A stretch of DNA of 50,738 nucleotides. Origin: Candidatus Poribacteria bacterium (lineage in GTDB: Bacteria; Poribacteria; WGA-4E; UBA9662). Positions 22,846 to 30,635 of the stretch are shown piece after piece (position 1 is the first letter of the stretch; each line of letters opens with the position of its first letter). The notes below the pieces were generated by a model. It saw only the letters and a program-made list of their open reading frames with translations, did not search any database and had not been told where the DNA came from. Location of the stretch: the NCBI GenBank assembly GCA_002709695.1, contig PAQF01000012.1, positions 1 to 50,738 on the forward strand, written 5' to 3'. Position numbers and translations under genes: made by a program.

Positions 22846-22881
22846 CAGACAAACATCTTAACTGTAGTTCAAGGCTAGTTT

Positions 22882-24786
22882 ATGGATACATTGATCATAG
22901 CTGTACTTAGCTTTGTTGGTTTTATTATTGCTTATCATACCTATGGCCGGTGGATCGCTAATAAGATTTTTGGGCTTGAAGATCAAGCCATTACTCCAAG
23001 CCGAGAATTGCAGGATGGTGTTGATTACGTACCGACTAAGAGAGAGGTTGTCTTCGGTCACCATTTCACCAGTATTGCTGGCACGGGACCGATTGTTGGG
23101 CCCGCAATAGCCGTATTTTGGGGATGGTTACCAGCCTTACTTTGGGTTGTTCTCGGGTCAATCTTCATTGGCGCAGTCCATGATTTCGGGGCCTTAGTAG
23201 TATCATTGAGAAATCGTGGTCAGACGCTTGGTGAGGTCGCGGGTCGAATGATTACTCCTCGTGCAAAGATGTTATTTCTGTTGATTTTGTTTTTATCACT
23301 AACTGTGGTGCTAGCAATCTTTGGTTTGGTAATTGCAGTTATCTTTGCTCTCTATCCTGAGTCAGTATTATCTGTTTTGATTGAAATACCGCTGGCTGTT
23401 ACCATCGGCTTCTGGATCCATCGAGCGGGAAAAAGTCTCTTGATACCATCATTGATCGCACTTGGGGTAATGTATGTTACCATGTATATAGGTGCCTATC
23501 ACTTACCGCGGTTATTTGATCTTGGGTTTCAGTTTAATATTCCCTTATTTGGTGATACTTTAGCAAGTGCGGTTGTTGTTTGGACTTTGGTTCTGTTTGT
23601 TTACTGTTTTATCGCATCGGTGTTACCAGTTTGGACTTTGTTGCAACCTCGTGACTACATTAATAGCCATGAATTGATTGTTGCATTGCTATTATTGGTT
23701 GCAGGGCTGGCATTTGCTGGAATCACTGGCCATGCTGATCTCATCGGATCCGCACCAGCTATTGCCAGCGACATACCACCCGATGCTCCGCCTATTATGC
23801 CATTTCTCTTCATCACTATCGCTTGCGGGGCAATTAGTGGTTTTCATTGCTTGGTAAGTTCGGGAACTTCAAGTAAACAGATTCAGTCCGAAGGAGATGC
23901 TCAGTATATCGGTTATGGTGCAATGTTGCTTGAAGGTGGTTTGGCAACAATTGTGATTTTGGCCTGTTGTGCTGGAATCGGTATGGGACTTTTCACCCGG
24001 GTTAATGTAGATGAAGGATCTTATTTCTATCGGAAAACTATTAGCCAGGAAACTGGTGAGCATATAAAAGGTCGTGAAGCTTGGATGATGCGTTATTCAT
24101 CCCAAATCGAGACAATCGAAAACCCCAATGGTACGACCAAAAAAGTGGGGGGTTGGCTTAATCATGGACTGGGACAAAAAGTAGGTGCTTTTATTGAGGG
24201 TGGTGGAAATTTCTTAACTAGCGTAGGTATCCCTCTTAAAATGAGTATCGTGATTATGGCAGTTTTAGTCGCTAGTTTTGCGGCCACTACGCTTGATTCA
24301 GCAACTCGGCTTCAGCGATATGTCATCCAAGAAATTGGGTTATCACTAAAAGTCAAATTGTTAGATAACCGCTATATTGCAACAGCAGTCGCTTTGGTTC
24401 TGGGAGGTATCGTGGCTGTCCTACCTGGTCCTAAGGGCCCCGGTAGTGGAGGTTTAATTCTCTGGCCTCTTTTTGGTGCGACAAACCAACTCCTAGCTGG
24501 TCTTGCCTTTATGGTCATTGTTTTTTATCTAATTCGGAGGAACAAGCCAATCTGGTTTGCAGTAGTACCGATGATATTGATGCTCATCATGCCAGCATGG
24601 GCAATGATATGGAACATGTTTGCGCCAGAAACGGGTTGGTATTTTACGGGGAATTACCTATTACTGGGAGTTGGTATAAGTATTCAAGCTTTGCAAATAT
24701 GGATGGTTGTCGAAGGTTTTCTCGCATTGCGGACAGCACGTGGAAATTATCCTGAATTACCACCGATCGCCGATTTCACTGGATAA
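22882..24786 (+). CDS. cstA: CstA-family peptide/pyruvate carrier (634 aa)
   Basis: An integral membrane protein with about 15 or more hydrophobic segments. Conserved CstA features are seen: HTYGRWIANKIFGL near the start, the block VFGHHFTSIAGTGPIVGPAIAVFWGWLPA (written here in part: FGHHFTSIAGTGPIVGPA), FIGAVHDFGALVVSLR, and SGFHCLVSSGTSSKQI. A C-terminal five-helix part follows (FAATTLDSATRLQRY, LWPLFGATNQLLAGLAF). Family members import peptides or pyruvate under carbon limitation; specificity is not decided by sequence alone. It lies 36 bp after the PhyH gene on the same strand, so it may be the last gene of that unit. Confidence 0.92.
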   Translation: MDTLIIAVLSFVGFIIAYHTYGRWIANKIFGLEDQAITPSRELQDGVDYVPTKREVVFGHHFTSIAGTGPIVGPAIAVFWGWLPALLWVVLGSIFIGAVHDFGALVVSLRNRGQTLGEVAGRMITPRAKMLFLLILFLSLTVVLAIFGLVIAVIFALYPESVLSVLIEIPLAVTIGFWIHRAGKSLLIPSLIALGVMYVTMYIGAYHLPRLFDLGFQFNIPLFGDTLASAVVVWTLVLFVYCFIASVLPVWTLLQPRDYINSHELIVALLLLVAGLAFAGITGHADLIGSAPAIASDIPPDAPPIMPFLFITIACGAISGFHCLVSSGTSSKQIQSEGDAQYIGYGAMLLEGGLATIVILACCAGIGMGLFTRVNVDEGSYFYRKTISQETGEHIKGREAWMMRYSSQIETIENPNGTTKKVGGWLNHGLGQKVGAFIEGGGNFLTSVGIPLKMSIVIMAVLVASFAATTLDSATRLQRYVIQEIGLSLKVKLLDNRYIATAVALVLGGIVAVLPGPKGPGSGGLILWPLFGATNQLLAGLAFMVIVFYLIRRNKPIWFAVVPMILMLIMPAWAMIWNMFAPETGWYFTGNYLLLGVGISIQALQIWMVVEGFLALRTARGNYPELPPIADFTG

Positions 24787-24879
24787 CGAAAACTTCGACT
24801 ATCATTTAAGTTAATGTTGATGCTGTAACTCGGATGTATTGTCATCAAGTTAATTGTCAGTATTTGAGCTCTTTTCTGA

Positions 24880-24909
24880 TTGACATAGTAATTGGCCCAA
24901 TGATAGAAT
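24880..24909 (+). promoter_or_regulatory. Sigma-70-type promoter of the alcohol dehydrogenase gene
   Basis: A perfect TTGACA (24880-24885) and TAGAAT (24904-24909) are separated by 18 bp. Transcription would start near 24916, about 34 nt before the TTG start codon at 24950. Confidence 0.7.
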
Positions 24910-24949
24910 CTGTTGGTTGTTTACATTTTCCTGAAGGGAGTTGTTACAG

Positions 24950-25924
24950 TTGAAAGCGGCTCAAATTGTTGGTCATCGCAAATTTGATATTGTCGACGTA
25001 GACATTCCTGACATATCGTCAGAGACACAGGGAACAGTTCTCGTTAAATCATACCAAAGCGCCATTTGTGGTAGTGATATGCCTCTCTTTGACCTGAAGT
25101 ATCCCGAGGATTCCTATCCTTTGTCATTGGGTCGGTCTATCCACGAGTGTATTGGAACAATTGCAAGCAGCAATTCTGACCGTTTTGGCGTAGGTGATAT
25201 GGTACTCTCAATTCCTCGTGAATTTGGACTTTCAGAGTATTTTATCTCCAGCGAAAGTGTAACAATTCCACTTCCTGATAAATCGACGTATAGTTATGAA
25301 ATAGATCATATTTTGATGTCACAACCGCTTGGAACAGTCATATGGGCTTGTAGAAAACTCGGAAATTTATTACATCAAGATACAGTTGTTTTTGGTCAAG
25401 GTCCTATGGGATTACTATTTTCACATATGTTAAGCAATCTAGGTGTAAGTACCGTAATTGCCGTTGATCGGTTAGATTATCGGTTGGCAATTTCCAAGCA
25501 AATGCGAGCGACACATGTAATTAATTCTGAAAAGGAAAATACCGTAGAAATTGTCAAAGATATCACCAATGGCAAAATGGCAGATCTAGTGGTGGAAATG
25601 GTAGGACATCAGACAGAAACAATTAACGATTGTTTGGATCTTGTAAAGCAAGGTGGGACAATCCTTGCATTTGGTGTACCGGACGATGATAACTACAATT
25701 TTAGATATGGAGATTTTTTTAGGCAAAACATTCGGCTGATAGGTACTGTAGGACCGGAAGAACTAAAAGATTATCCTTTAGCTATGGATTTCATTGTTCA
25801 AGGGCGTATCAATGTTTCGCCAATCATCACGCACCATTTACCGTTTGCTGAAGTCCAGCGCGGATTTGACTTGTTCTCTGAGCGGAAGGATGAAGCGATT
25901 AAGGTTGTTCTTGATTTTGACTGA
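24950..25924 (+). CDS. Medium-chain zinc-type alcohol dehydrogenase (324 aa)
   Basis: A GroES-like N-terminal domain carries the catalytic zinc site C40 (AICGSD) and H65-E66, here as SIHE rather than the usual GHE. The structural-zinc lobe with four Cys is absent. A Rossmann fold follows (VVFGQGPMGLLFSHM), so NAD(P) is the cofactor. The start is taken as the TTG at 24950, 9 nt after GAAGGGAG, giving the typical MKAAQIVG; a TTG at 24941 touches that site. Substrate unknown; sorbitol/threonine-type dehydrogenases are the nearest general class. A small membrane protein gene follows after 29 bp. Confidence 0.88.
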   Translation: MKAAQIVGHRKFDIVDVDIPDISSETQGTVLVKSYQSAICGSDMPLFDLKYPEDSYPLSLGRSIHECIGTIASSNSDRFGVGDMVLSIPREFGLSEYFISSESVTIPLPDKSTYSYEIDHILMSQPLGTVIWACRKLGNLLHQDTVVFGQGPMGLLFSHMLSNLGVSTVIAVDRLDYRLAISKQMRATHVINSEKENTVEIVKDITNGKMADLVVEMVGHQTETINDCLDLVKQGGTILAFGVPDDDNYNFRYGDFFRQNIRLIGTVGPEELKDYPLAMDFIVQGRINVSPIITHHLPFAEVQRGFDLFSERKDEAIKVVLDFD

Positions 25925-25953
25925 AAGTGTAAAGAAGAAGGATAAGCTATAGA

Positions 25954-26310
25954 ATGGGAAAAGAACTTTTAAGAGGGTTGGTATTGTGGGGTAGGTGTCT
26001 CATTTGGGCGGTTGTTCTTGCAAGTCCTTTCATTTGGATTTGGCAAACTCATCCGGGACCGGGGCAAGAGTTAAGTCCATTGTGGGAATGGCTGGAAGCC
26101 GATTCGTCCGTACAAGGTTATGCTAAGATCATTGTGGTGGTAATTGGATTAGTCTGGTTTGTTTCTGGGGCAGTTTTCTTGGTTGGTTCATTTTTGAAGG
26201 CAACGATTGATCTGAATCTGGATACTGCAGAAGAATCCTTGATGGAAGAAAGCGACCACGCGGAGCGCACGCGAGAACGTTTGCTTATGCAGGAGGAATC
26301 TGCAGATTAA
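25954..26310 (+). CDS. Small two-helix membrane protein of unknown function (118 aa)
   Basis: Two hydrophobic segments, residues about 6-30 (LRGLVLWGRCLIWAVVLASP) and 58-84 (KIIVVVIGLVWFVSGAVFLV), enclose a short Pro/Glu-rich loop. The C-terminal 30 residues are charged and helical (EESLMEESDHAERTRERLL), likely cytoplasmic. An AGAAGGA site precedes the ATG. It follows the alcohol dehydrogenase gene closely and probably shares its transcript. I do not recognise the family. Confidence 0.75.
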   Translation: MGKELLRGLVLWGRCLIWAVVLASPFIWIWQTHPGPGQELSPLWEWLEADSSVQGYAKIIVVVIGLVWFVSGAVFLVGSFLKATIDLNLDTAEESLMEESDHAERTRERLLMQEESAD

Positions 26311-26433
26311 TTATCCTTACCTAATTTTTTTTGCTTCGAAGTAGAGAACAATCAGCTTTTTGTCATAGCCATATTTAAGTGATTATGGTTTATGATTGAC
26401 TTCTCAAAAGCGACAATGTATTCGGCTCTAGCA

Positions 26434-26764
26434 TTAATCCAGCTCTTCCTTGAGTTTTACCAGGGATAATAGACTGACTTCACCCGCCCTTACATCCGGT
26501 AAAAAACCCAATCCAACCTCTTGGATGTATTCCTTTCTTTGTCCACTGTAACCAAATCTGATTATGTCCTTCATGAGCTTGATTGTAACATCTTGCTTTC
26601 TACTCTCTTTTGCCACAACAAATAGCAACCATTACCAATCTACCATTACCAGTGCTAAGTTCCTTTCGAAATGTTTTTTACCCCTCAATTCCCCATTCGG
26701 TAATTAACCCATGTATCAATTCAACGTTAATGCGATACTCATGAGATATATAAACATGTACCAT
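26434..26764 (-). pseudogene. Decayed gene of unknown function (one nonsense, one frameshift)
   Basis: On the minus strand an ATG at 26764 opens MVHVYISHEYRINVELIHGL and continues to a TAA after about 27 codons, then carries on in the same frame (KTFRKELSTGNGRLVMV). A protein-like sequence then resumes in another frame (positions 26628-26434) with FVVAKESRKQDVTIKLMKD and RAGEVSLLSLVKLKEELD before a stop. I read this as one gene of about 110 codons broken by a nonsense codon and a frameshift near 26630. The family is not recognised; the evidence is residue composition only. Confidence 0.45.
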
Positions 26765-26864
26765 TAAAATTATCTAACTAAATTAAAGAAATAGCTTGGA
26801 TCGTAATCATTAAAAGATTGTAGGACTCTAAGCCTAGATCCCACAGAATTTGAAAAAACATCTC

Positions 26865-26893
26865 TTGACGCCCCCCCCAAATCGCTATATGAT
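26865..26893 (+). promoter_or_regulatory. Promoter with a C8 tract in its spacer
   Basis: TTGACG (26865-26870) and TATGAT (26888-26893) are separated by 17 bp. The first eight spacer bases (26871-26878) are all C. The transcript would start about 57 nt before the ATG at 26957. A homopolymer here could change spacer length by slippage. Confidence 0.65.
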
Positions 26894-26956
26894 GAAATTC
26901 AGATTTTTAAGTATTAACTTTAATAACCTTAACAAACAATAGAAAAGGAAAAAACT

Positions 26957-27235
26957 ATGGGAAAAGCAAATTTGGCTGCTATCGCTCACTTAAAATGTGA
27001 TTATGAAACTTGGGAAAACCTGTTCCTTGGTCACGAAGACAACCAAGAACAAGTACACTCTGGGAATTATTTGTACGGCAAAGCAAATGACAATACTGCA
27101 ATAATTATTATGAAAGACATTGATATGGTAGCAATGGCTGAGAGAGCTTCAGACCCTGAATTCCAAAAATTCGTCGAACCGTATGTGGAATCACACGAAT
27201 TTTTCATTTTAAATGAAATGGAACCTCCTGAATAA
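26957..27235 (+). CDS. Small conserved-looking protein, possible ferredoxin-like alpha/beta-barrel fold (92 aa)
   Basis: A short soluble acidic protein starting MGKANLAAIAHLKCDYETW. The pattern of an N-terminal strand, a helix, then NTAIIIMKDIDMVAMAERAS and a final strand (SHEFFILNEME) resembles dimeric alpha/beta-barrel proteins, but I cannot assign a family. It has an AAAAGGAAAAAACT ribosome site and a good promoter 57 nt upstream, so it is likely a real, independently expressed gene. No terminator is visible after it. Confidence 0.75.
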   Translation: MGKANLAAIAHLKCDYETWENLFLGHEDNQEQVHSGNYLYGKANDNTAIIIMKDIDMVAMAERASDPEFQKFVEPYVESHEFFILNEMEPPE

Positions 27236-28043
27236 TAGTAGAATTAAGACTTTAAGACTTGCTGAACGGCTTAAAAATTGCGCGGGGATTAGTCGTGATG
27301 AACGACCGCCGGGAAAAGCTCAAACATTCTGCCCAAAACAATGCCAACCTGCGTTGCTAGCCCCCATAAGGATAAGTCATAAAAGATTATACTTATATTT
27401 TGTTTCGCAGACAGCGAAGTATCTACTGGAAAGTTCTCCTAGTTGTTTAGATTCAAAAACGCCGAATTCTCCTGAGTCAAGATGCACAACGAGCTTCACT
27501 TTATGACGTTTCGATTGAACTATAGCGAAATTACTGGGACTCCATAATTATTATTCTCTACTACGTTTTTTCCTCCATTGGTTGGAATGTCAATAAACAC
27601 GTTTATTGACATTCCAAAAGCGTTTAAAAATGGCATGAAAGACAGCCGAACGCAATAAAAATATGGAAACCTATAAATTAAACTTTGGGATGGACACATT
27701 GAAAAGCGATTAGAAAATCTGGAGGTATTTATATTAAACACTAGAAACGTTATTATTATCGAATGGAAATAAAAATGGAGAATTAATAAAACAAGGAAAG
27801 AATTATCAAATACGGGAGCAGGGGTAAGTGTTGCTTTAGGAACTACACTTGGAATTGTAAAACGGAAAAAGACAAAGAAAACTAGATGACAAATTACAAG
27901 CTAGAGATTAAAGTAACCCGTAAGGTTCGTAGTCAAAGACTCAGTTGTCATATTGTCAATAAAGCCATACATGAACTGTCACCCCACAGTAGTTTTAAAC
28001 TCGAGTAGTTCTATCAAATCTTAAAATATCGAAAGGTAGCAAT
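27236..28043. other. Intergenic region with probable decayed coding fragments and a long palindrome
   Basis: No intact gene is supported. On the minus strand, two protein-like pieces in different frames (ending IPTNGGKNVVENNNYGVPV near 27520, and KLVVHLDSGEFGVFESKQLG near 27450) suggest a worn-out gene. On the plus strand near 27810-27890 a short Gly/Ala-rich frame ends in a lysine-rich tail. All are too short or broken to name. The perfect inverted repeat at 27582-27617 lies inside. Confidence 0.4.
27582..27617. repeat. Perfect inverted repeat, 17-bp arms, 2-bp centre
   Basis: Left arm 27582-27598 and right arm 27601-27617 are exact reverse complements (arm TTGGAATGTCAATAAAC) with only AC between them. 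There is no T-run on either side to make it a terminator. It could be an operator, a recombination site or a cruciform. Confidence 0.85.
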
Positions 28044-29495
28044 GTGTCGAGCAAACCTAATATTCTATTTTTGATGACAGATCAAATGCAGGGACGAGTC
28101 CTTGATCCACAACATCCTTGCCAAACTCCTAATATGAATCGCCTCATTCACAAAGGCGTTCGGTTCAAAAACGCTTACCCAGCCAATGCTGTATGTTCTC
28201 CTTCTCGAGCGAGCCTGATGACGGGGCTGTTGCCACACAATCACGGTGTATTACATGTGATTCATAATGTCGATTCAGATCAGAGTTGCTTGCGTGACAC
28301 ACACCCGCACTGGGCACAAAAACTGGAGGTTGCTGGATACAAAACCGGATACTTTGGTAAATGGCATGTCGAACGGAGTAACAAACTCGAACAGTTTGGA
28401 TGGCAAGTTAACGGTACACATGCAAGTGAATTATGGCAACAGAGACAAAAGGAAATTTCGGTTAATAACCCTGTTCAACAGACTTTCTCTCTGCAACGCA
28501 ATTTAGACGAACCTCCGGGGTATAGGGAAAGCATATTCTATGGTGTAACAGATCTACCACCTGAGAAACGAAATATGGGCGTTACCGTGAGTTTGGCAGA
28601 GGATTTTCTCCAAGAAAAATTGGCAGCAGATGATCCCTGGTGTTGTTTTGTTAGCCTAAAGGAGCCACACGATCCGTTCATCTGCGATCAGTCAGCTTTT
28701 GATCTCTATGAAGTTGATAAAATTACGTTACCACCAAATGCCCGGGATGATCTCCACGGTCGTCCCGGCATCTATCGTAAAGCAGCACGTGTATGGCAAA
28801 ATTTCACTGATCAGGAAAAACGTGAAGCAGCAACTTGCTACTATGCATCTATTACTGAGATTGATCAACTGTTTGGAAAACTCGTGGATTTAGTAGAAAC
28901 TAACGATGAATCAGAAAACACTATCATTATAATAACCTCTGATCATGGAGAATTGCTTGGTGCGCACGGTTTATATTGCAAGAATTTTTCGGCCTCGGAA
29001 GAGATTTACAACATCCCACTTGTTATATCCGGCCCAGGCTGTGCAAAGGGGATAGCCACGGACGCTCGTGTTGGATTACACGATCTAGGCCCCTCTCTAC
29101 TGGAACTAGTCGATTGTGAACCGATTGACGTTCCTGATTCACGTTCCTTCGCAAGCATTCTTAGGGATCCAAAATCAGGAGAACATCAGTTTACAAAAGG
29201 GTTCGCTGAATACTACGGTGGACGTATGATTCTAACACAACGTGTAATATGGAACGGATCGTGGAAATTTGTTTTCAACGGATTTGATTTCGACGAATTG
29301 TATAATTTGGATGAGGACCCATATGAAATGACCAATCTAGCGGAAGATCCAACATATCAAGAACAACTCACGAAAATGACCGCACAAATGTGGCAAGTAG
29401 CTAATGAAACGAACGATCATAGTTTGTTCAATTCACAATATCCGATTCTCCGTGTGGCTTCTGTTGGTCCACTAGTCTTAAATGAGAAATGGTAG
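28044..29495 (+). CDS. Cys-type sulfatase (483 aa)
   Basis: A member of the arylsulfatase/alkaline phosphatase superfamily that would hydrolyse sulfate esters. The active-site signature CSPSRASLMTG begins at C51; this Cys must be changed to formylglycine by an FGE or radical-SAM enzyme. The N-terminal metal motif is LFLMTDQ (D13), and a second metal region TSDHGELLGAHG is near residue 300. The C-terminal part includes WKFVFNGFDFDELYNLDEDP, common in this family. No signal peptide is visible, so it may be cytoplasmic. Start is a GTG with GAAAGG 7 nt upstream. The neighbouring SUMF1-like gene is broken and lacks the FGE Cys pair. Confidence 0.93.
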   Translation: MSSKPNILFLMTDQMQGRVLDPQHPCQTPNMNRLIHKGVRFKNAYPANAVCSPSRASLMTGLLPHNHGVLHVIHNVDSDQSCLRDTHPHWAQKLEVAGYKTGYFGKWHVERSNKLEQFGWQVNGTHASELWQQRQKEISVNNPVQQTFSLQRNLDEPPGYRESIFYGVTDLPPEKRNMGVTVSLAEDFLQEKLAADDPWCCFVSLKEPHDPFICDQSAFDLYEVDKITLPPNARDDLHGRPGIYRKAARVWQNFTDQEKREAATCYYASITEIDQLFGKLVDLVETNDESENTIIIITSDHGELLGAHGLYCKNFSASEEIYNIPLVISGPGCAKGIATDARVGLHDLGPSLLELVDCEPIDVPDSRSFASILRDPKSGEHQFTKGFAEYYGGRMILTQRVIWNGSWKFVFNGFDFDELYNLDEDPYEMTNLAEDPTYQEQLTKMTAQMWQVANETNDHSLFNSQYPILRVASVGPLVLNEKW

Positions 29496-29942: not shown

Positions 29943-30635
29943 ATGGTGCGTATCCCTGCAGGATCCGTTGAGATGGAAGACCATTTCAACGAAGGATTGG
30001 CTCGCGAACTTCCTGTTCATATAGCAGATTCCTTCTATATGGACAAGCATGAAGTGATAGTCCAGAGATTCAGGAGGTTTGTTAAGGAAACAAGTTACCA
30101 ATACAAACGTTGGGATGATGTAGAAGAATCTTCGCTAACATCTAGACACCCCATGGTCTTCGTCAACTGGCATAATGCAACTGCTTATTGTGAATGGGCG
30201 GGCAAACGACTGCCCACTGAAGCAGAATGGGAATATGTCGCTCGTGGAGGACTAAGTGGCAAACGATATGTGTGGGGTGATAATGAAAATCAGGCACGAA
30301 AATATGCCAATTATGATGGTACAAATGGTCAGGATAGATGGACACGATGTGCCCCTGTGAACAGCTTTAAGCCCAATCGTTATGGCCTATCCAATATGGC
30401 CGGTAATGTCTATGAGTAGTGTGCCGATTGGTACGATGAAGATTATTATAGAAATTCGGCATTGCGTAATCCTCAAGGTCCAAGCTCAGGAGAAGATCGT
30501 GTTTTGAGGGGAGGTTCTTGGCCTAACGTTTCAAACTTACTACGTGTAGCATACCAATTCAACTTCAATCCCATGGGTGCTAACTTCAACTGTGGTTTTC
30601 GATGTGTGTCAGAATACTCTACTATGCAGCAGTAG
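29943..30635 (+). pseudogene. SUMF1/FGE-sulfatase domain gene interrupted by an amber codon at a conserved Trp
   Basis: The frame reads MVRIPAGSVEMEDHFNEG, then HPMVFVNWHNATAYCEWAGK, RLPTEAEWEYVARGG and NRYGLSNMAGNVYE, then TAG at 30417-30419. It continues in frame with CADWYDEDYYRNSALRNPQG, RVLRGGSW and NCGFRCV to a TAG at 30633-30635. The family consensus here is GNVxEWCxDWY, so the TAG replaces the expected TGG. Family similarity also extends upstream of the ATG (EKDGAE) to another in-frame TAG at 29922-29924. The Cys pair of true FGE (human C336/C341) is not found after RGGSW, so even intact it would probably not generate formylglycine. Confidence 0.8.

Follow-up and report, generated by a model that had tools for sequence, protein, structure and literature searches.

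The sequence at positions 26865–26893 is best explained as an ordinary sigma-70-type promoter of a gene for a 92-aa protein, the run of eight C (C8) in its spacer being a chance homopolymer, and to this reading we assign a probability of about 0.77. Positions refer to the window, i.e. the whole stretch of 50,738 nucleotides analysed, which belongs to contig C12 in a Poribacteria draft genome of 5.2 Mb. The site lies on the plus strand and reads TTGACG-CCCCCCCC-AAATCGCTA-TATGAT. Sequence and promoter scoring place the −35 hexamer TTGACG at 26865–26870 and the −10 hexamer TATGAT at 26888–26893; sequence and run counts place C8 at 26871–26878, in the half of the 17-bp spacer nearest the −35 hexamer, and AAATCGCTA makes up the rest of the spacer, between C8 and TATGAT. 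The original prediction had the two hexamers separated by exactly 17 bp with eight C between them, and its sequence, coordinates and spacing were all correct.

Between the end of the −10 hexamer and the ATG of the 92-aa open reading frame (ORF), which occupies 26957–27235 on the plus strand, there are 63 bp. The intervening stretch (26894–26956, plus strand) includes a predicted leader from about 26900, and the promoter would start this leader of about 57 nt and drive the gene. A purine-rich ribosome-binding region, AAAAGGAAAAAA, precedes the 92-aa gene and is also found before its Marinimicrobia homologue. The intergenic stretch containing the site is 646 bp long, and the neighbouring genes encode CstA, a zinc-dependent dehydrogenase, a 118-aa protein without family and a sulfatase. 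No Rfam families were matched around the site, and folding of the leader RNA gave no structure beyond chance (z = 1.05).

When scored against sigma-70-like hexamers (TTGACA/TATAAT), the site reached 10/12 and was the top match in 26300–28100, sharing this rank with a single site on the minus strand, within the 92-aa gene. The promoter scan of the genome covered 841 kb (790 kb beyond the window) on both strands and recorded sites of at least 10/12, the upstream class being the 250 bp before ORFs. The ORFs were called longest first with a minimum of 100 aa, and the C8 site was thus classed as lying elsewhere, its gene having 92 codons. Altogether 338 sites were found, 74 of them upstream. Their density was 1.11 per kb before ORFs, 0.15 per kb within ORFs and 0.28 per kb in the remaining sequence, a roughly sevenfold enrichment of the upstream class over coding sequence. 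Because of this upstream enrichment, the sigma-70 consensus can be taken as valid in the organism and the site as a credible promoter: it has TTGACA/TATAAT-like hexamers within the spacing of 16–18 bp and precedes a gene, and gene starts in this genome are marked by sites of this kind. Both promoter activity at 26865–26893 and the placement of the transcript start are likely, judging from these sequence features.

The hexamers might instead be a chance match, the 92-aa gene being read from another start in the intergenic stretch or not transcribed at all, which we consider unlikely. Chance matches are common in this region, as 26300–28100 includes 11 promoter-like sites of at least 9/12 against 6.2 expected (sd 2.4), and the site lacks conservation in relatives. 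However, it is the best match upstream of the gene, has the plus-strand orientation and a usual spacing to the start codon, and belongs to the quality class that showed the roughly sevenfold upstream enrichment.

The 92-aa ORF is considered a real gene because homologues exist: one with 71% identity in a Marinimicrobia genome (L054), one with 34% identity in the family-level relative G002, and a distant paralogue on contig C39 of the same genome. The promoter half of the original prediction, which had described the site as a possible phase-variable promoter, was thus supported by the correct −35/−10 geometry, by the higher density of such sites ahead of genes and by the reality of the gene.

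The other half concerned the tract. Slippage in C8 would give a spacer of 16 or 18 bp and could change the expression of the 92-aa gene, making the promoter phase-variable or tunable as at porA or fimX, a reading that we find rather improbable. The location of the tract speaks for it, a homopolymer lying between a −35 and a −10 hexamer at the correct spacing, and we agree that one C lost or gained would leave 16 or 18 bp between the hexamers. However, the tract is rather short, and a single step either way would still give a usable spacer, 16 and 18 bp being within the usual sigma-70 range. We infer that the promoter at 26865–26893 tolerates these lengths; single C steps give usable spacers, and therefore an on/off switch is not expected, but at most modest tuning. 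If the site is an ordinary promoter with a chance tract, C8 would occupy the −35-proximal half of the spacer, which is weakly constrained in sequence, and occasional one-base slippage would modestly change promoter strength without switching the gene off.

It had also been claimed that C8 stands out in an AT-rich genome, and this did not hold. The GC content of the window is 37–45%, not extremely AT-rich, and C8, the sole such run in the window, compares with an expectation of 0.54 per window; at least one C8 occurred in 38 of 100 dinucleotide shuffles of the window. The whole genome includes 34 C or G runs of at least eight, the longest of ten, whereas about 44 are expected per genome under a first-order model of the window and 21 under a second-order model of the 841 kb. 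The second-order model thus leaves a slight excess, at most 1.6-fold over the range of 21–44, and in the lack of a clear genome-wide excess these counts lend phase variation no clear support. With such lengths present a few dozen times in the genome, C8 would most likely be a chance homopolymer. Neither are the long C/G tracts of the genome concentrated in promoters, and 28 of the 34 are located in open frames of at least 240 codons.

More in favour of phase variation is the position of this particular tract, which is the only one of the 34 inside a spacer scoring at least 10/12; the runner-up lies in a 9/12 spacer within a 657-codon frame. Multiplying the 34 tracts by the density of sites of at least 10/12 and by 10 offsets, the number of tracts expected by chance wholly inside a 10/12 spacer is 0.14 per genome with all sites and 0.03 with upstream sites only. 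The coincidence of a tract and a good spacer is mildly unusual, but the pattern had already been seen when it was picked. Searching for TTGACNCCCCCC elsewhere in the genome produced no matches, and its reversed control produced one.

Poly-G or poly-C tracts in promoters are known from other bacteria. In Neisseria meningitidis porA, a poly-G tract lies in the −35/−10 spacer (van der Ende 1995, as cited in PMC5084427). The likeness to the present site is a C/G homopolymer between −35 and −10 whose length sets the length of the spacer; porA differs in that changes of tract length, and what they do to expression, have been measured, and in that its product is a surface protein. Long C/G tracts are clearly over-represented in Neisseria genomes, whose variable tracts start from about 7 nt (PMC4085013), the latter a point in favour of a tunable promoter. 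In Bordetella pertussis, C7 and C8 promoter alleles of fimX differ in transcript level, which likewise favours a tunable promoter, and in Bordetella genomes, too, such long tracts are clearly over-represented (PMC1891110). The fim2, fim3 and fimX promoters share with the present site a poly-C tract, that of fimX being near C8 in length, but the C-stretches of fim2 and fim3 are mostly longer, 12–22 in the unbroken copies of the table in that paper (PMC1891110). Furthermore, the fim tracts are polymorphic among strains and form part of the fim-box element of fimbrial genes, whereas here one allele is at hand. A limited literature search found no work on phase variation in Poribacteria.

The arrangement did not recur within the phylum above the level of the control. 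A pattern of TTGAC, C7 and TATNNT with loose gaps gave five matches in 85 genomes of the phylum and its reversed version gave four, i.e. the arrangement is no commoner than the reversed pattern, which counts against phase variation. Two of the matches, with a 20-bp and a 19-bp spacer, had the elements in the same order, and both were rejected as parallel cases with no convincing promoter. The first (L113 1501–1532; G031:C17:7787–7818), in another Poribacteria genome, consists of TTGACA, C9 and TATTTT with the 20-bp spacer, and the second (L114), with the 19-bp spacer, lies inside an opposite-strand 138-aa ORF.

Comparison with relatives showed that the promoter and the gene are within a segment (26366–28005, no strand assigned) with no counterpart in the same-genus genome G001, a sister species. 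Over 22879–26365 of the window, G001 shows 84.7% identity, and the similarity resumes at 28006 on a different contig, the two blocks flanking the segment thus being on separate contigs of that genome. The intergenic DNA of the site had no match among 59 relatives. The DNA similarity to the Marinimicrobia homologue starts at 26938, in the ribosome-binding region, with the promoter and the tract outside it. Upstream of the G002 homologue there is TTGAGT-17-TATTAT, and no C or G run longer than four was present in the 300 bp upstream of three homologues (L054, L003 and L002). The tract is thus missing at the homologues, which is a further point against phase variation, and as far as can be seen from these sequences C8 is lineage-specific. 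No tract-length variants were found in viral contigs.

The Marinimicrobia protein with 71% identity is the closest relative found of the gene in 26366–28005, and this suggests transfer between phyla. No homologues of the 92-aa protein were found in plasmids and phages. Within the same segment, absent from the sister species, there is also a perfect palindrome at 27582–27617, its arms of 17 nt separated by a 2-nt loop (TTGGAATGTCAATAAAC / GTTTATTGACATTCCAA), present as a single copy in the genome. Further downstream, 29943–30635 matches dozens of places in G001 with 65–80% identity, a pattern expected of a large gene family, and appears split over two ORFs (29943–30419 and 30462–30635).

For the gene product, the prediction is a small dimeric alpha/beta-barrel protein (ABM/EthD-like) and not a surface antigen. 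The AlphaFold2 model, built from a four-sequence alignment, was confident, with a mean pLDDT of 89.7, and had the order beta-alpha-alpha-beta-beta-alpha-alpha-beta. The top fold matches were ABM-type proteins, among them DR_2100, SnoaB, PA3566, YgiN and LsrG, and are consistent but weak, with E values from 0.002, none below 0.001, and TM-scores of about 0.5–0.6. The likeness to ABM/EthD-type dimeric alpha/beta-barrel proteins thus consists of the predicted secondary-structure order and the best fold matches; the difference is that the protein of the window has no family profile match (neither in Pfam nor in NCBIfam). One homologue matched EthD, only at E = 0.17, and a PDB sequence search with the 92-aa protein gave no meaningful match. 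Most small dimeric alpha/beta-barrel proteins are enzymes of the cytosol or resemble enzymes, whereas contingency loci typically encode surface structures, and a product that is not surface-like speaks against phase variation.

Also the presence of the MutS and MutL mismatch-repair families argues against it: MutS-type and MutL-type genes are present in the genome, with two MutS_V matches not sorted into MutS and MutS2. In sum, the original prediction stands as regards a credible promoter, and its phase-variation part found no support in tract excess, phylum, homologues, mismatch repair or product. Phase variation is possible but unsupported, a slim prospect, in a comparison that comprised one genome per species.

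A C8 run in a promoter spacer alone is not evidence for a switch, considering the 34 such runs of the genome and the control-level arrangements of the phylum. It is very improbable that a lineage of Poribacteria tunes a gene it has in common with Marinimicrobia, one that has probably moved between phyla, by slippage of a C-tract in the promoter spacer. A real switch of this kind would mean that phase variation through promoter spacers, known from pathogens, also occurs in Poribacteria.
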